This document shows positions 55,720 through 62,903 of a stretch of DNA of 64,000 nt, one piece after another. The translations under genes were made by a program, and so were the position numbers. This stretch comes from Candidatus Eisenbacteria bacterium (GTDB taxonomy: Bacteria; Eisenbacteria; RBG-16-71-46; CAIMUX01; JAHJDP01): NCBI GenBank assembly GCA_018831195.1, contig JAHJDP010000109.1:1-64000 (forward strand), in the 5' to 3' direction. The notes beneath the pieces are model-generated. The model did not search any database. It was given only the letters and a program-made list of their open reading frames with translations, and was not told the origin of the DNA. The stretch's first letter is position 1, and every line of letters starts with the position of its first letter.

Positions 55720-56100
55720 ATGGCTATAACAAGCGCGGTATGACGAAGCGGCCTGCTGGCCTTAGCGGTTTTGATCATTTTTCTGGGTTGCTCGAGTGAT
55801 AAGACCACATCAATGGACGACGGGACAGGGGCGCCCGTGGACACCCTCGATCTGTCATTCGAGGAGCCGCCTTTTAACCTGCTGGGGATTGAGGCCTGGG
55901 TCAAAAACAGCATGGAAAACACGGGGATCCCCGTCGATACCGGCGAGTTGTTCCACCACGTTCTGCACGCGGTCGCTTTGTCAGAGAGGGCCGAAGAGGT
56001 CGAATTGGAGTACATGGCCTATATGCCGCCGCTGGAAATCGCGGATCCGTCAGGGGACGGCGTGATCAAGTTTCTTCTGGATCGGCTTGGGGGGAAGTGA
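55720..56100 (+). CDS. Small lipoprotein interrupted in its signal peptide (TGA or frameshift)
   Basis: ATG 55720 has an excellent ribosome site (AAAGGGG, six bases). The frame reads MAITSAV, then TGA (55741-55743), then RSGLLALAVLIIFLGC, a perfect lipobox ending in Cys. It continues SSDKTTSMDDGTGAPVDTLD to the stop at 56100. Read with a Trp at the TGA, this is a 126-residue lipoprotein. Alternatively ATG 55739 gives MTKRPA and a one-base frameshift would join it to LLALAVL. Without either repair the only start is a TTG at 55771 inside the hydrophobic core. The mature part is acidic and unrecognised. Confidence 0.6.
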
Positions 56101-56473
56101 GATATACTTAAAGCGAATCGTGAGAAAATTGCGCTAATACGTTATATTTCAATATGATACAGACTAGACGTATAGATACTTTTCTTTCGGCGCCGATTGG
56201 ATTCTGAGCGAATGCATCTTTTGGGAGCGCTGCTGGAAACGGCCTGAAATGTGCCAATTTTCTGCTCAGGATTTTACTTCTGCCCGCGTGGAATTAAATA
56301 TCCCTCTTGAAATTCCCGATGAACAAGGTAGCGCAGAGCTTTCGATGGGCTCTGACACTTTAGACAGCTTGGGCAGGATGCTCAGAGAATGGAGCCCTCA
56401 TGCCAGGGAAATGGTTTTGGGGTTCTTGGATATGACCGGGTCTAGGGACCTACTCGACCTGGAGGTTCTCCAT
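56101..56473 (+). other. Intergenic region before the fibre-like locus, with a doubtful small ORF
   Basis: The first ~100 bases are A+T-rich and could hold the promoter of the following gene group. An open frame from ATG 56249 runs in phase into the next gene (75 codons, for example LREWSPHAREMVLGFLDMTG). It lacks a ribosome site, while the next ATG has a strong one. I treat 56249-56473 as non-coding or a gene remnant, but it could be a short real ORF. Confidence 0.35.
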
Positions 56474-57010
56474 ATGCGTAGGATTATCTTCATAGGGATG
56501 ATAGCGCTTCTGAGCATGACGCCCGTTTGGGCGGCTGATGATGTGGATACTCAGAACTCAACTGTAGGGGGCACCATCCCTGAACTCTGCCAGATTCTCA
56601 TCGCCGGTGATCTGACGGGACTTCTGACTCTGACCCAGGATGGGACAGGTGAATCAGCCTATGATGCCGGGTTTATTGAATCAGCGGCGGATGCGACGAC
56701 CCTTACTCTGGATGCCAATAAGCAATGGAAGCTGAGCGTTAAGTATAACGCTGAATGGACGTGCCCGGGAGCGTACGACAAGGATGAAACCGACCTGACG
56801 ATTAAGATCACAAATTCGCCCACGGGGACGATTCAGAACAGCTACGACAGCTATCAATCACCGCCGGTGGCCAATGAAGAGATGCTGAGCCATGCGACAG
56901 GCGTTTCCGACAACAGCGTCGAAATTCAAACGAGAGTGGATTTGGATTGGACGACGGATATTCCGGGCGTCTATTCAATCACTCTAGTTTATACAATGGA
57001 GACATATTAG
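56474..57010 (+). CDS. Exported beta-sandwich-type structural protein 1 of a chaperone-usher-like locus
   Basis: A 178-residue protein from ATG 56474, eight bases after GGAGG. Residues 1-21 are a signal peptide ending VWAAD. The mature part is beta-rich with WTCPGAYDKDETDLTIKITN in the middle, and it ends with VDLDWTTDIPGVYSITLVYT. It is strongly similar to the next gene product, pointing to tandem duplication. The terminal DW...G.YS..L.Y motif recurs in all four small exported proteins of this locus. A subunit of a surface fibre or layer is the best guess; no named family is recognised. Confidence 0.75.
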   Translation: MRRIIFIGMIALLSMTPVWAADDVDTQNSTVGGTIPELCQILIAGDLTGLLTLTQDGTGESAYDAGFIESAADATTLTLDANKQWKLSVKYNAEWTCPGAYDKDETDLTIKITNSPTGTIQNSYDSYQSPPVANEEMLSHATGVSDNSVEIQTRVDLDWTTDIPGVYSITLVYTMETY

Positions 57011-57120
57011 AGGGATCCGGTATCACCGGATTTGAGGCCAGCCCTCACTGCACGATCCGCCGCTCCAACGCGGCGGAATGACCCGCCAAGGAAGGCACGG
57101 TAGAGTGCAAGGAGGCACGG

Positions 57121-57669
57121 ATGTGGTCCGTCAAGCCATCAATCCGCCTATTTTTGTCTATCTTTCTCGCTCTCTCCGTATGTCCAATCTCCGCCCAAGA
57201 GATCCAAACAACATCCCTGACAGTCGCTGTTCCGCGTCTTAGCGCGCTGACCATCAGCGGGGATGTGTCGGGACTTCTCACGCTTTCCGTGGATGCCACC
57301 GGCGAAACGGCCTTTGACGCCGGTTTTATTGAATCCGCCGCCGATGCGACGATGCTGACCCTCAGCACGAATGATACATGGGATCTTAATGCCAAGCTGA
57401 ACGGGGAGTGGTCCTGTCCCGGGGCCTATGACAAGCCCGAGGACGATCTCACAATAAAGATCACCAACACACCGACGGGCACGATCCAAAATGGGGCCGG
57501 CGCGTATATCACCCTTTCTGCGACGGATACCGAAATTCTGTCGCATGACAGCGCCGTTACGGGCAACGAGGTGGATATACAAACCAAGGTTTTGCTCGAT
57601 TGGACAAATGATATACCAGGGTCCTATAGCATTTCATTGACTTATACGTTAACGACCCATCTGCCATAG
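57121..57669 (+). CDS. Exported beta-sandwich-type structural protein 2 (paralogue of protein 1)
   Basis: A 182-residue protein with AAGGAGG before its ATG and a signal peptide ending ISAQ (about 1-25). It shares DAGFIESAADAT, EWSCPGAYDKPEDDLTIKIT and TPTGTIQN with protein 1, and ends VLLDWTNDIPGSYSISLTYT. It contains a single mature-chain Cys in the CPGAYDK block. The duplication and strong conservation suggest both copies are expressed, perhaps as major and minor subunits. Confidence 0.75.
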   Translation: MWSVKPSIRLFLSIFLALSVCPISAQEIQTTSLTVAVPRLSALTISGDVSGLLTLSVDATGETAFDAGFIESAADATMLTLSTNDTWDLNAKLNGEWSCPGAYDKPEDDLTIKITNTPTGTIQNGAGAYITLSATDTEILSHDSAVTGNEVDIQTKVLLDWTNDIPGSYSISLTYTLTTHLP

Positions 57670-57752
57670 CGGGGGTTTAGGAAGGGCCCGGGCGACCGGG
57701 TTTAGAACCACGCGGATGAATGGGAAGAGATGTCGAAACCTGGAGGATGGAG

Positions 57753-58637
57753 ATGAAAACCGGTTTGCTTCGGCGTACTGCCGGCGCCCTGTCTTTTGCG
57801 ATCACCTGGCTGCCCTTTCTGCCGTTGTTAGCGCCGGGCGCTTGTTCGGCGGCTTTTGTCGCTTCACCCATGGAACAGCATCTGAACATCGCAGCCGGAT
57901 CCCAAGGGGTCGCCGCGATTACGGTGCAAAATACCGGAAAACTTCCGCTAACGCTGAAACTGTATCTCGCCGACAGCCAGGTTTACCCGAATGGCCAGGA
58001 AGAGGATCGGGATCCAGGTGCCGTTGAGAGAAGCTGCGCTCTGTGGACCTCCATTAGCGACCAGCTAGTGGAACTCGAGCCTGGTGAGACGCAGCAGGCC
58101 ATGCTGAGGATGTCGGTGCCCGCAAATGCGAGAGGAAGTTATTGGACAAAATTGTATATCGAAGAGGTCAGCACGCCGGTGCCAAGCACGCGTCAAACTG
58201 AAGGGCGAAGTTATCAGGTCTTTTTGAAGCAGCGGGTTGGTATTCGAATCTTTCAAAATGTCCGGGGAACAGAGGTGCAGGACGCGGAAGTCACATTTGT
58301 CGGTGTGAGTCCGGCGGAAAACGGCCGGGAAATACGGACCTCCGTAAAGAATGCCGGAAACAGCATCCTACGATGCAATGGCCGGGTTGAGCTGCGGGAT
58401 GCGCAAGGCGAGATCGTCGAATCGCTGAGTTTTAATTCCGGTGGGAAGTTTTGGGTCTTTCCCGGAAATCACCGCGAATTGGTTGTAACGACCGATACAA
58501 AGTTGACGCCGGGAATTTACACAGCTCTCTCGATTATCGATTTCGGCGGGGATCACCTGATCGCGGGGGAGGAGATGTTCCGGGTTGAAGGGGAGAAGGG
58601 GGATCTTCTCTTAGGTCAGGGGACGGCCGGCGAGTGA
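57753..58637 (+). CDS. Exported PapD/DUF916-like chaperone candidate
   Basis: A 294-residue protein from ATG 57753, six bases after GGAGG; upstream ATGs at 57720 and 57747 are less likely. The signal peptide is TWLPFLPLLAPGACSAAF. Residues ~35-150 form an Ig-like domain of the PapD/DUF916 type: SPMEQHLNIAAGSQGVAAIT, VQNTGKLPLTLKLYLADS, WTSISDQLVELEPGE, and MSVPANARGSYWTKLYIEEV. A second Ig-like domain follows (~165-275). This two-domain layout equals that of pilus-assembly chaperones. It lies among four small exported proteins and a large barrel, supporting a periplasmic chaperone role. The stop overlaps the next start (TGATG). Confidence 0.75.
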   Translation: MKTGLLRRTAGALSFAITWLPFLPLLAPGACSAAFVASPMEQHLNIAAGSQGVAAITVQNTGKLPLTLKLYLADSQVYPNGQEEDRDPGAVERSCALWTSISDQLVELEPGETQQAMLRMSVPANARGSYWTKLYIEEVSTPVPSTRQTEGRSYQVFLKQRVGIRIFQNVRGTEVQDAEVTFVGVSPAENGREIRTSVKNAGNSILRCNGRVELRDAQGEIVESLSFNSGGKFWVFPGNHRELVVTTDTKLTPGIYTALSIIDFGGDHLIAGEEMFRVEGEKGDLLLGQGTAGE

Positions 58638-59179
58638 TGACTCCGGTGAAGCGCTCACGAACGAATTTAGGGACCTATCGAAGGGCGCGCGCTTGCGCCT
58701 GTCGGGCGGCGGTCCTTGGCGCAACGGCGATCGTGATACTTGCCCTCGGGTGCCTGTCGATTCCCGCACTGGGGAATGAGGCTCGGGTTGAAGTACAGTT
58801 CTTTGTGCCCCCGCTGCAAAAAATGGAAATGGACCAGGTTGTTTGGACCCTTCCTGCGCCGACGGCTGCGGATTATGTGGCGGGTTATCTAAATGTCCCC
58901 ACACCTTTCAAACTGACCCTCAGCAGCAACACCCCTTGGGAACTGAGCGTCAAGACAGATCGGGATGATATTTCAGTTCTCCAGGACGGCCCCATCCCGC
59001 TGCAGTGGTCACTGGATAAAAGAAAATACAATTTCATCTCGAACGATTGGACGACCATGACATCCGGCGATAGAGCGGTGAACGGTCAGCGCGTGGAGCT
59101 TTCATATCGGATGCTGCTTGACTGGCAAAACTGCACCGCCGGCATCTATAAACCCCGTCTGCAATTCAAACTGAAGTAG
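58637..59179 (+). CDS. Exported beta-sandwich-type structural protein 3
   Basis: A 180-residue protein starting at ATG 58637, overlapping the previous stop by one base, so translation is coupled (GTG 58634 is an alternative). The N-terminus is long and basic before the signal core (GATAIVILALGCLSIPALG). The mature part carries FKLTLSSNTPWELSVKTD, like the corresponding strand of proteins 1 and 2, and ends YRMLLDWQNCTAGIYKPRLQ. It is more divergent than proteins 1 and 2. Role as a minor or adaptor subunit is inferred. Confidence 0.7.
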   Translation: MTPVKRSRTNLGTYRRARACACRAAVLGATAIVILALGCLSIPALGNEARVEVQFFVPPLQKMEMDQVVWTLPAPTAADYVAGYLNVPTPFKLTLSSNTPWELSVKTDRDDISVLQDGPIPLQWSLDKRKYNFISNDWTTMTSGDRAVNGQRVELSYRMLLDWQNCTAGIYKPRLQFKLK

Positions 59180-59191
59180 GAGTCAACAGGC

Positions 59192-59683
59192 ATGACGCGC
59201 CGTAAGTATCCGGTATGGCTTCTTTCGATCCTTTTGCTCATGGGTGCTATGGCTCCGGCGCCCAGCGTCTGGGCCGATGGGCCCGAATTGCGGGCTGAAA
59301 TACAAAAGGTGCGCGCGCCGTTAATCACCGTCGAGTCGATCGATGATGGATATGTGGAGATTGATCAATCAAGAGGGAATGTCGCCGTTTCCTTGGAGAT
59401 CGATCCCGGAGAATCGACCCGCGGCTGGATTTTGACGGTTCGGTCTGATCAGGAAGTGTTTAATCCGGTGGGAACGGGCAAGCCCTGCTCGGATTTAATG
59501 TGGAAGTTGGATAATGACGGCAAGGAGGCATATCGAAGACTCGAAAGCCATGAGACTGTCGTGGTTGAAAATCCTCAAGGAGGAGCGGCGCGGATTACCC
59601 TCGATGCGCTGGTTAAGATCGATTGGGAGACTGATCCGGGCGCCTATAGCTTGGGACTCATCTTCCGCGTTACATACATCTAG
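59192..59683 (+). CDS. Exported beta-sandwich-type structural protein 4
   Basis: A 163-residue protein twelve bases after the previous gene, with TAGGAG upstream. The signal peptide is WLLSILLLMGAMAPAPSVWA. The mature part has a beta pattern with SRGNVAVSLEIDPGES and ends VKIDWETDPGAYSLGLIFRV, the shared terminal motif. It may be a tip or base subunit. No named family is recognised. Confidence 0.7.
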   Translation: MTRRKYPVWLLSILLLMGAMAPAPSVWADGPELRAEIQKVRAPLITVESIDDGYVEIDQSRGNVAVSLEIDPGESTRGWILTVRSDQEVFNPVGTGKPCSDLMWKLDNDGKEAYRRLESHETVVVENPQGGAARITLDALVKIDWETDPGAYSLGLIFRVTYI

Positions 59684-59732
59684 CATTGGCGGGACCAAGC
59701 TTATTAACGGGCGAATCATCGCTTGTCTGGGG

Positions 59733-62700
59733 ATGCTTGCGCTCATTTTGGGGTTTGTGGTCAAACCTGCACAGGGAAGACCCGAATTTATAACAAAGGG
59801 ATTCCATCCGGCATATATCTCAGGAGTTCAAAGGGCGCCGGCGAGGGCCGGAGAATTTTATACCTGCAGTTATAAGATCGAAAACCTGCAAGCAGATTCG
59901 CTGAACCTTCAGCTTGAGATCGATGCCCCCGATGAATGGCTCCCTGTGACCGGCCGAAAGCAGGTCGTGATTCCCGCCCACACTATTAGGACCATTCCTT
60001 TCACCCTTTGGATTCCAGCGCACGCTTCGGCCGATTCGCTGCACAAAATTATCGTCAGCGCGCATACGATTCCCGAGTTTCGCCGGCTTGAGAATGCCGC
60101 ACTCAATGTTGAAGTCGCGCCGCAAAGCGGAATTAGCCTGAACTCACTGACCGATGGCCTTAAGGGCGAGGCGGGGAGCGAGATCAAGCATCTGTTTGAG
60201 ATACAAAATACCGGAAATCAGACGGATGTCTACCATGTCAGCGCTCTGTCAATTCCATTCTGCGAGACGCGGCTATCCGAGACAAAAGTCAGGCTGGGAC
60301 CGGGGGAGCGCCGGCAAATTGCCGCGACGATGACCCCGCCGGATAGCGATCGTGAGAAGACATTATATATTCTCGAGCTCAATGCGGATCAGGAGAATGG
60401 CATGAACGAGTTCCGGCCGATCCATTCCGACAAAGATGTTCTGACCACGGTCTATAAATCGCATCGAGCGCCCAACAGGTACAAACGGCTGCCGTTGAAT
60501 TTAATGATGCGGATGGGGGAGACGCATGGAGATCAGCCATTCTACGGGATTCGATTTGATACCAAGGGCTCTATCAGCCCGAATGCCCAGATTGATCTGG
60601 ATGTTGAGTTCACGACAGAGAGGCGCAATCCCGGGATGACGTCTTGGAAGAACCAGCGGTTTCATCTGGCCTGGCTCGACAAATCGTGGGAAGTGGATAT
60701 CGGCGATATCCACCGGGAATCTCCCGATGTCGCGACAAAAACAATTTCGGGCCGGGGTGTCGCTTTCGAAGGCCAGCGCGGCGAGTGGACCGGTCGGTTC
60801 TTTGCCGGGAAAGAGCGGTCGCCGCAAGTGATTCCGACATGGAGCACCGCTATTGAATATAGGGCGGATCGAAAGCTTGCTTTCGGCGTCGATTATATCC
60901 GGAAGGGCGAGGAAGGCGTTCATCACCGCAGGGATGACCTGACAAGTATCACGACCCGTTTTGATCCGACCGCCGCGCTCAGTATTCGATACGAAACGGG
61001 GTTTTCCAGAACCCGCGCTTACACTGGAAACTCACGGGGGGCGAGCGGGCTGTTTCATCTGGATTATCAGAGTGAGAAGTTGAAGATCAGGGGCCGGACC
61101 TATTATGGGTCGGATGGATATACCGGATGGTCATACAACCGGGATGGTGTGGCTCTTTATACAAGTTTTAATGTCAACCCCTTCGCCAAGCTGTGGATGA
61201 ATGTTGATTCATCCCGCGGCCGGTCGTATCTGTCGAAGGATTCGCCGGAATCATCGACATCGCGCATTCGCTTTGGAGGGCGGCTTCTCACCTCTTCTTG
61301 GCCTGGTTTGGAAATGACGGTGGGGAGCAATTCATGCGAAAGCGATGCTTATGGGAGCCGTTCGCATACCGAAGAGCGCGACATGAGCATCATGGCGTCG
61401 CATCATTTGGGGCCGATTCTCGCCACAGCCATGAGGCAGTGGGGGCGGGCGAAGAATCACCTTACGGGCGGCTCGGGGCGCACCAATGGGCTGGAATGTA
61501 GTTTGGGTGGGCAGGTGCTGGGGTTGCATGTGGCGTTTCACATGAATGATGATCATGGGCGCTCGACCGTCAGCGATGACGCGACGTGGACGACGTCGCT
61601 TTCCGGAGATATCGCTTGGAGCTCATGGAGAAGGGGCGTGACGGCGAGTCTCATGTTCGCGTCGCGATGGATTTCATCCGTCAATGATATCAACGATCGG
61701 TTGCGAGAGGATCGCATCTATCCCAAGTTAAGCCTGCGATTGAGTCCCAAATTGTGGCTTAGCTCCGATGCCGGATTGCGGACTGATCGGGGTGAGTTGA
61801 AATTTGATCAGTGGCAAATTCGGCTGACCTTTTCATCGGCGGAGGCGTTGCCGCTTGTTTGGTCTCCGGTGCGGGGGGGTGTACGCGGCGTTGTCTTTTT
61901 GGATGAGGATATGGACGGGTATCCCGATCTCGATGAGGAGCGCATCGAGGGTGTCATCCTGCTGATGGAGGGGAGTCATCGCGTCACCGATCGAGCGGGG
62001 CAATTGGATTGGGATGCGATGAATCCAGGTATCTATTGGCTGGATATGAATCAAACAACACTGCCCTCCGGGTATTATTTAAAACAAAAGCTTCCGCTGG
62101 AGGTTCATGTATCCGCTGGAAATGAAACGCAGATATATATCCCGCTGACGCGCGGCGGTGAGATTTCCGGTGTCGTATTTAGGGATGAAAACCATAATGG
62201 CGCCCGGGATTCTGATGAGGGTGGTGTCAGCGAGATTAGAATGGTTTTGACGCAGGACGGAACACATGTCGCCGAGTGGCTCACGGATAAGTCAGGAAAG
62301 TACACGGTTCGGGATATTCCAACCGGCCGGTATCAGATTCGTATCGCGGATCACTGGCTTCCGTCGAACTGGGACTTAACAGGGCCGTCGATTGTTGATG
62401 TGGAAGTGGGGGCGGAGTCGTTACCCTATTCGGCTTCGCATGGAATCGCGCCGAAGATTAGACCGATTGTGACGACGTATCGGGGTGGGATTAAGAAGCG
62501 ATTGCTGCAGGCTGAGCAGGAAACCACGCGGGTTGCGCCGGTCGCGCCTGTTACGGCGGCAGCGCCTGCTGCGCCGGTTGTGGCGGCCGCGCCGCCGAAA
62601 GAGAAACAGGTTCCGCACAAGAGTTCTCCCACGCCGCAAAAGAGCCCTCACGTTTCTCTCCGGAAAGCGCAGGCGTCACGTGTAACTCCTCAAGCCGCAA

Positions 62701-62903
62701 AATATCTCGAAGCGCCCGCGAAACTCCCATCCGGAAAGACATCACCCGCCGGCGGGCCGCTTAAACTTACCGAAGTTTATAATTCAATGCTCCGGTCACC
62801 CATCCCGGCACCGGAGCCCACATGGCAGGAAAATCTAATGGTCCAACTCGCCCGCCTTGGCGTTTATTTTATAGATGGACGTTTGAGCTTCAATCTGCGG
62901 TAG
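59733..62903 (+). CDS. Usher-like outer-membrane barrel with Ig-like and SdrD_B-like domains
   Basis: About 1,056 residues. The start is uncertain: ATG 59733 is the first after the previous gene, but the in-frame ATT codons at 59685 or 59703 would give a better signal peptide (KLINGRIIACLGMLALILGF). Two Ig/NEW3-like domains (~15-215) come first (QVVIPAHTIRTIPFTLWIPA). A long barrel-like region of amphipathic strands spans ~250-705. Two SdrD_B/CarboxypepD_reg-like modules follow (GVVFLDEDMDGYPDLDEERI; GVVFRDENHNGARDSDEGG), then a Pro/Ala/Lys-rich linker (~930-1000) and a short end with FIDGRLSFNLR. It fits an outer-membrane secretion or assembly pore for the small proteins upstream. No close match to FimD-type ushers was seen. 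Confidence 0.75.
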   Translation: MLALILGFVVKPAQGRPEFITKGFHPAYISGVQRAPARAGEFYTCSYKIENLQADSLNLQLEIDAPDEWLPVTGRKQVVIPAHTIRTIPFTLWIPAHASADSLHKIIVSAHTIPEFRRLENAALNVEVAPQSGISLNSLTDGLKGEAGSEIKHLFEIQNTGNQTDVYHVSALSIPFCETRLSETKVRLGPGERRQIAATMTPPDSDREKTLYILELNADQENGMNEFRPIHSDKDVLTTVYKSHRAPNRYKRLPLNLMMRMGETHGDQPFYGIRFDTKGSISPNAQIDLDVEFTTERRNPGMTSWKNQRFHLAWLDKSWEVDIGDIHRESPDVATKTISGRGVAFEGQRGEWTGRFFAGKERSPQVIPTWSTAIEYRADRKLAFGVDYIRKGEEGVHHRRDDLTSITTRFDPTAALSIRYETGFSRTRAYTGNSRGASGLFHLDYQSEKLKIRGRTYYGSDGYTGWSYNRDGVALYTSFNVNPFAKLWMNVDSSRGRSYLSKDSPESSTSRIRFGGRLLTSSWPGLEMTVGSNSCESDAYGSRSHTEERDMSIMASHHLGPILATAMRQWGRAKNHLTGGSGRTNGLECSLGGQVLGLHVAFHMNDDHGRSTVSDDATWTTSLSGDIAWSSWRRGVTASLMFASRWISSVNDINDRLREDRIYPKLSLRLSPKLWLSSDAGLRTDRGELKFDQWQIRLTFSSAEALPLVWSPVRGGVRGVVFLDEDMDGYPDLDEERIEGVILLMEGSHRVTDRAGQLDWDAMNPGIYWLDMNQTTLPSGYYLKQKLPLEVHVSAGNETQIYIPLTRGGEISGVVFRDENHNGARDSDEGGVSEIRMVLTQDGTHVAEWLTDKSGKYTVRDIPTGRYQIRIADHWLPSNWDLTGPSIVDVEVGAESLPYSASHGIAPKIRPIVTTYRGGIKKRLLQAEQETTRVAPVAPVTAAAPAAPVVAAAPPKEKQVPHKSSPTPQKSPHVSLRKAQASRVTPQAAKYLEAPAKLPSGKTSPAGGPLKLTEVYNSMLRSPIPAPEPTWQENLMVQLARLGVYFIDGRLSFNLR

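Follow-up and report, generated by a model that had tools for sequence, protein, structure and literature searches.

A six-gene locus with a PapD/WxLIP-like chaperone, pilin-like small proteins and a predicted barrel in Candidatus Eisenbacteria

Gene organization and conservation

The window analyzed here is a 64,000-nucleotide stretch (positions 1 to 64,000 of contig JAHJDP010000109.1) that forms part of the 5.2-Mb draft genome of a Candidatus Eisenbacteria bacterium, a member of a diderm, non-proteobacterial lineage. Positions 56474–62903 of its plus strand hold six open reading frames (ORFs) that encode, in this order, two small exported proteins, an exported protein with two immunoglobulin (Ig)-like domains, two further small exported proteins and a protein of 1056 residues. 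An earlier reading of the bare sequence, hereafter the original prediction, had proposed a chaperone-usher-like surface-fibre locus composed of six plus-strand genes with short gaps or overlaps. The coordinates agree with this layout, the successive spacings being 110, 83, -4, 12 and 49 bp. A hydrophobic N-terminus, judged by eye, is present on all six proteins. The features are as follows.

56474..57010, plus strand: subunit A (P0001), 178 aa, exported and pilin-like, containing a W-x-L motif and the C-terminal strand YSITLVYTM; equivalent position in loci L006 and L015
57121..57669, plus strand: subunit B (P0002), 182 aa, exported; pilin-like according to AlphaFold2 and Foldseek
57196..57240, plus strand: residues 26-40 of subunit B, EIQTTSLTVAVPRLS, its N-terminal extension and a candidate donor strand; confidence mostly low in the monomer model
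57379..57387, plus strand: W-x-L motif of subunit B, W87-D-L89 (column W in 28/46 and L in 36/46 subunits)
57753..58637, plus strand: chaperone (P0003), 294 aa, two-Ig protein of the WxLIP/PapD superfamily, without C-terminal membrane helix
58209..58250, plus strand: chaperone residues 153-166, SYQVFLKQRVGIRI, aligned to the G1 donor strand of FimC; Arg161 kept in 27/35
58634..59179, plus strand: subunit C (P0004), 181 aa, with a 4-bp overlap with the end of the chaperone gene; ATG at 58637
59192..59683, plus strand: subunit D (P0005), 163 aa
59733..62903, plus strand: pore candidate (P0006), 1056 aa, start uncertain
59781..60437, plus strand: N-terminal two-Ig module of P0006, residues 17-235, weakly chaperone/WxLIP-like
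60450..61862, plus strand: predicted beta-barrel of P0006, residues 240-710, 26 strands, low-confidence model
61866..62447, plus strand: two SdrD_B-like modules of P0006, residues 712-905, aligning with the usher C-terminal domain
62448..62900, plus strand: Ala/Pro-rich linker and C-terminal tail of P0006, in both copies of this genome and absent from G005 and G007

The six ORFs are real genes and not chance ORFs, because complete copies in the same order exist and their dN/dS values are low. A second full copy lies on another contig of the same genome (C33; L006:1627-8148), where genes of the helicase type flank it. The proteins of the two copies share 76–87% identity, and dN/dS values of 0.08–0.38 for each of the six genes point to purifying selection on both copies. 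The full set occurs a third time, with unrelated flanks, in a genome from a different family within the order (L015). The order, which the original prediction had proposed to examine in relatives, is therefore kept in three loci. A shorter set on a further contig of the same genome (C53; L007) comprises two small proteins, the chaperone and the barrel, and additional Eisenbacteria loci (L016–L019) hold the chaperone and the barrel, mostly with recognizable small proteins. In G007, a contig end carries the 3' portion of the barrel gene. Between the window and C33 copies, the dS of subunit A is 1.36, versus 0.39-0.53 for the other five genes, hinting at recombination or replacement.

A direct family assignment from Pfam and NCBIfam was tried and rejected. 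Only SdrD_B (8.9e-16) and, on the same modules, the prealbumin-like SpaA model passed the cut-off, both in P0006, and no other family of these collections did so in any of the six proteins.

The chaperone

Taken alone, P0003 has no curated family match; it falls under the PapD_N cut-off, and its match to WxLIP_PGBD is not significant. A tblastn search retrieved hypothetical proteins of Deinococcus (2e-13; 26-30% identity over 74-79%) and proteins annotated as DUF916 in Cohnella (7e-4) and Arthrobacter (1e-3). A profile built from 14 diderm sequences only (Eisenbacteria and Deinococcus) matches the solved WxLIP structures (DUF916–DUF3324; 9i25_C/9i1y_A) over both domains and 235 positions, with an E-value of 2.4e-6. 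The same profile matches the archaic PapD chaperone of a distant locus over nearly its full length (positions 4-231, i-E 1e-12). This archaic protein is recognized by Pfam PapD_N (5.5e-16), and its gene lies between SCPU (7.8e-32) and Usher (2.3e-26) genes. In profile–profile comparison with hhalign, the chaperones score 99.6% against monoderm DUF916 proteins and 95.9% against PapD-type chaperones, whereas the reversed-sequence controls of the parent comparison gave 0.3–1.2%.

By these profile comparisons, the P0003 family is homologous over both domains to WxLIP and to archaic PapD chaperones. The early impression of a two-Ig exported protein resembling PapD or DUF916 was thus right on both counts. 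A C-terminal membrane helix is present in the aligned proteins of Arthrobacter, Cohnella and Paenibacillus and absent in every diderm row. An Arg four residues ahead of the column of PapD/FimC Lys112 is kept in 27 of 35 chaperone relatives.

The small subunit proteins

The four small proteins form a single family, with pairwise profile matches of 89–96% over their full length. P0001 and P0002 share 55% identity, and comparison of the four with the small proteins encoded in the shorter loci gives 92–93%. The core motif T/S-N-x-x-W-x-L-x-V-R/K (W in 28 and L in 36 of 46 relatives) is followed in the family by a C-terminal strand, G-x-Y-x-x-x-L-x-Y-T-L, whose aromatic position is kept in all 46. 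The first W-x-L motif is conserved, and the equivalent of the second is mostly Y/F-x-L.

Structures were predicted with AlphaFold2 from alignments that left out the Deinococcus sequences. The model of P0002 (19 sequences) averages a pLDDT of 76.4 and exceeds 90 in its core, while residues 29–37 (pLDDT <50) constitute an unfolded N-terminal extension. A Foldseek search of the PDB with this model returned mainly donor-strand-complemented pilins, with TLP-1a as the best match (4.6e-4), followed by CfaB, PapA, FimA, SafA, CsuA/B and CupE. The proposal of four small exported beta proteins is consistent with the N-termini and with the pilin-like fold predicted for P0002. The N-terminal extension displays a hydrophobic alternation ahead of a conserved Pro, the p-value of which is not independent evidence, because the sequences are related and some anchors are misplaced.

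No small protein significantly matches FimA-type, SCPU, DUF4402 or WxL profiles. The WxL domain (PF13731) has no match anywhere in the genome. Despite the suggestive W-x-L motif, membership of the WxL family is not claimed, as the profile comparisons are non-significant (5.8-27%), the score having fallen from 27% to 5.8% with a deeper subunit set. In two other loci, one gene adjacent to those of the chaperone and the barrel encodes three subunit domains in tandem (L133:6893-8251, L134:6674-8008).

The pore candidate

The start of P0006 is uncertain: the reading frame extends upstream without a stop as far as 59514, and 59733 is not preceded by an evident ribosome-binding site. Its AlphaFold2 model shows two Ig-like domains, 26 strands (residues 257–700) and then sandwich modules. 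The original prediction of an outer-membrane barrel with N-terminal Ig domains is thus supported by predicted secondary structure, within a model of low confidence. Foldseek places FimD on top (2.6e-6) and also lists SlpA and SDBC, which gives the pore reading weak support at best.

P0006 and the Deinococcus barrel are homologous from end to end (profile 99.2%). Alignment of the two SdrD_B-like modules gives 92.1% (E 6.2e-7; 0.1% with the reversed control) against the usher C-terminal domain and 99.7% against the corresponding modules of barrels encoded next to DUF4402 proteins. The modules had been noted from the start and are present, but they are not foreign to ushers. The N-terminal Ig module matches WxLIP 9i1y_B (1.8e-3) and scores 82% against the chaperones, with a reversed control of 0.3%.

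Before trimming, full-length comparisons gave 99.5% for the window-type set against DUF4402-type barrels and 95.6% for a set of 37 sequences, which included DUF4402-type barrels, against ushers. The signal vanished once the C-terminal modules were cut off. Whole-barrel homology to ushers was therefore rejected, and homology is claimed for the C-terminal modules alone. No sequence relation between the barrel body and FimD was detected, as had been anticipated, and Usher (PF00577) has no match in the genome at E<=1.

The tail of P0006 (62448-62900) ends in a short conserved PTWQENLMVQLARLGVYFIDGRLSFNLR, a feature restricted to the two barrels of this genome. In other Eisenbacteria, the chaperone or the barrel is followed by a separately encoded small protein whose ending is somewhat similar (L018:8715-9320, L020:3254-3796).

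Distribution outside the phylum

The chaperone profile matched in 63 of 385 genomes, 52 of which lie outside the phylum and represent 43 family codes. Each of the 20 best extra-phylum loci (204 genes) holds exactly one barrel-profile match, situated at most two genes from the chaperone and on the same strand in 19 cases; at least one recognized subunit is found in 17. The gene set, the absence of which elsewhere had been named as a possible refutation, is thus kept in 20 of 20 sampled loci. The host is indeed diderm and non-proteobacterial, but the system is not peculiar to its lineage and occurs at least also in Deinococcota and in many other families. The presence in Deinococcota was established from plasmid records, in which the genes are labelled hypothetical, DUF916, FimB/Mfa2 or carboxypeptidase-like regulatory.

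Among 18 weaker chaperone matches, 10 have a barrel match as well, and in three of these the barrel is DUF4402-type. The remainder comprises, among others, L149 and L158, which are monoderm-type loci with a membrane tail and without a barrel; L151, L154 and L155, in which the chaperone gene is long or tandem; and L163, a true archaic chaperone–usher locus, of which a second example occupies part of L160. Chaperone-profile proteins of ~500-540 residues are encoded at L074:1602-3194, L151:3705-5336, L154:5511-7001 and L155:5390-7018; those of L074, L151 and L155 are tandem fusions of two chaperone units. No barrel-profile match adjoins the long chaperones in the scanned stretches of L151, L154 and L155. 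The family thus seems to form a continuum that runs from PapD systems via DUF4402 systems and the window type to WxLIP.

Comparison with known systems

The WxL/WxLIP clusters of monoderms (EfmWxLIP1, PDB 9i1y, 9i25) resemble the locus in their clustered genes, in a two-Ig chaperone-like protein and in small exported beta proteins that carry a W-x-L motif and, at the C-terminus, an aromatic-x-aliphatic strand. The WxLIP domain pair, PGBD and HBD, is matched by the diderm-only chaperone profile (EfmWxLIP1, 2.4e-6). By contrast, the window chaperone lacks the C-terminal membrane helix, an outer-membrane barrel gene is added, the subunits match no WxL profile, and proteins with two W-x-L motifs were not found in the locus. 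In the WxL system, a WxLIP hairpin is predicted to supply the completing strand of the WxL sandwich (PMC10599100); strand-lending there would follow the same principle as the capping proposed for the chaperone.

The archaic (sigma) chaperone-usher systems (Csu/CupE/SCPU) share the gene logic of subunits, chaperone and pore. Their chaperone is homologous over both domains, CsuA/B and CupE resemble the subunit model, and the two beta-sandwich domains of the usher C-terminal domain (CTD) align with the C-terminal modules of the window. The differences concern the pore, which has no PF00577 match and no plug and carries an N-terminal Ig module in place of PapC_N, and the subunits, which are neither SCPU nor FimA by profile. 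The cleft residues Arg8 and Lys112 are not kept.

Further relatives are operons that combine DUF4402 proteins with a chaperone and a barrel (L021:225-5097, L075:2193-6687, L157:2809-7182, L164:1957-6443). Their chaperones (98.5%) and C-terminal modules (99.7%) are homologous to those of the window, whereas their subunits are DUF4402 proteins and their barrel body is homologous to ushers (94.6%), unlike that of the window (3.3%). Because these operons pair DUF4402 with a PapD/WxLIP-like chaperone and an usher-homologous barrel, DUF4402 is probably a pilin subunit family. The Deinococcus plasmid loci (L085, L086, L092) share the order subunit, chaperone, subunit, barrel, and their barrel is homologous (99.2%); they differ in having one subunit on each side, the upstream one of about 290 aa and without a profile match.

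Flanking region

The upstream neighbour of the six genes is a TonB-dependent receptor on the opposite strand. The interval between it and subunit A (55771-56473) contains two short ORFs in different frames, one with a lipoprotein-like start and no Pfam match. The pair is possibly a decayed or frameshifted gene.

Discussion

The homology of the chaperone, the pilin-like model of P0002 and the conserved gene set support the reading of the locus as subunits, chaperone and pore, and it probably encodes a divergent chaperone-usher-like assembly pathway. This reading withstood those refuting conditions of the original prediction that were applied. In the proposed mechanism, subunits A to D would be secreted to the periplasm as incomplete Ig-like pilins, each of which would be capped by the 57753 protein, the chaperone, through the loan of a beta strand. 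The 59733 protein would act as the assembly pore in the outer membrane, where its N-terminal Ig module may receive or hold chaperone-subunit complexes, its roughly 26-strand barrel would serve as the exit for subunits, and its two C-terminal modules would be the counterpart of the usher C-terminal domains. The chaperone strand would then be swapped for the N-terminal extension of the next subunit, and the subunits would leave as a thin surface fibre. The role of the barrel as a pore, donor-strand exchange and fibre formation are steps that we infer.

Several observations weigh against this reading. The barrel-only profile does not match ushers (3.3%) or DUF4402-type barrels (0.5%) significantly, so that we do not claim that the entire pore descends from ushers. 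P0006 has no PapC_N domain and no plug; some 26 strands in about 444 residues leave no room for the ~80-residue usher plug. Its model, built from four sequences, is of poor quality (mean pLDDT 43.7), and in the fold search FimD is closely followed by LptD and other large barrels. The cleft pair of PapD and FimC is not preserved, the Arg8 column being mixed and the Lys112 column holding Lys or Arg in 10 of 35 sequences. The Foldseek scores of the subunit model are modest (best 4.6e-4, TM 0.53); despite this, the concentration of its matches on one class, donor-strand-complemented pilins, is informative.

The alternative that we take most seriously, although we consider it improbable, is a static complex anchored in the outer membrane, the diderm counterpart of WxL/WxLIP, in which the WxLIP-like protein stays bound and the barrel anchors or displays the assembly without polymerization. 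The chaperone is nearer to WxLIP than to PapD (99.6% vs 95.9%), most subunits carry the W-x-L motif, the pore's own Ig module is weakly WxLIP-like, and the predicted strand completion of the WxL sandwich (PMC10599100) fits such a complex. However, the diderm chaperones lack the membrane helix that keeps WxLIP in place, profile comparison of the subunits with WxL stays below significance (5.8-27%), the predicted subunit fold is pilin-like with a free N-terminal extension, and the C-terminal modules align with the usher CTD. Less probable still is a strongly diverged member of the known archaic (sigma) family and not a separate class. The direct match of the chaperone profile to archaic chaperones and the DUF4402-type relatives, which are linked to true ushers across the barrel (94.6%), argue for it. 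Against it, the genome has no PF00577 match and elsewhere just a partial PapD_N match under the cut-off, the plug is missing and the N-terminal domain differs, SCPU and FimA-type subunits are unmatched, and the PapD cleft residues are not conserved. That unrelated exported beta-rich genes lie side by side, with a barrel of porin, LptD-like or S-layer type, is very improbable: LptD, SlpA and SDBC are among the matches of the weak barrel model, but the conserved neighbourhood already contradicts it, as the order is kept in three loci with unrelated flanks, the barrel stays within two genes of the chaperone in 20 of 20 extra-phylum loci, and all six genes are under purifying selection.

We file the divergent assembly pathway as a system that would work like chaperone–usher, with a homologous chaperone and C-terminal modules, but in which defining features of ushers (the PF00577 barrel and its plug) and of their subunits (a FimA-type or SCPU profile match) were looked for and not found. 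Classical and alternative chaperone–usher systems are described from proteobacteria, and archaic ones also from Cyanobacteria and Deinococcus-Thermus (PMC4654587). In the open literature (subscription papers and preprints lay outside the scope), no paper with DUF4402 and none linking DUF916 and Deinococcus was found, and titles and abstracts held no matching 'chaperone-usher-like' system. Given this scope, the system is regarded as undescribed provisionally. The chances seem even that it represents an undescribed, phylum-crossing class of chaperone-usher systems with a WxLIP-type chaperone.

We read the system as a widespread bridge between PapD systems and the WxL/WxLIP systems of monoderms. 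Two separately studied systems, PapD pili and WxL/WxLIP, are thereby linked, and the uncharacterised DUF4402 family gains a likely pilin role. The link is open to direct test by structure prediction and in culturable Deinococcus. If the system is indeed such a phylum-crossing class, PapD chaperones and Gram-positive WxLIP would share one subunit-capping ancestor, WxL domains and pilins would be capped by a single strand-lending trick, and the pore's own chaperone-like N-terminal module would stand in for the usher N-terminal domain.

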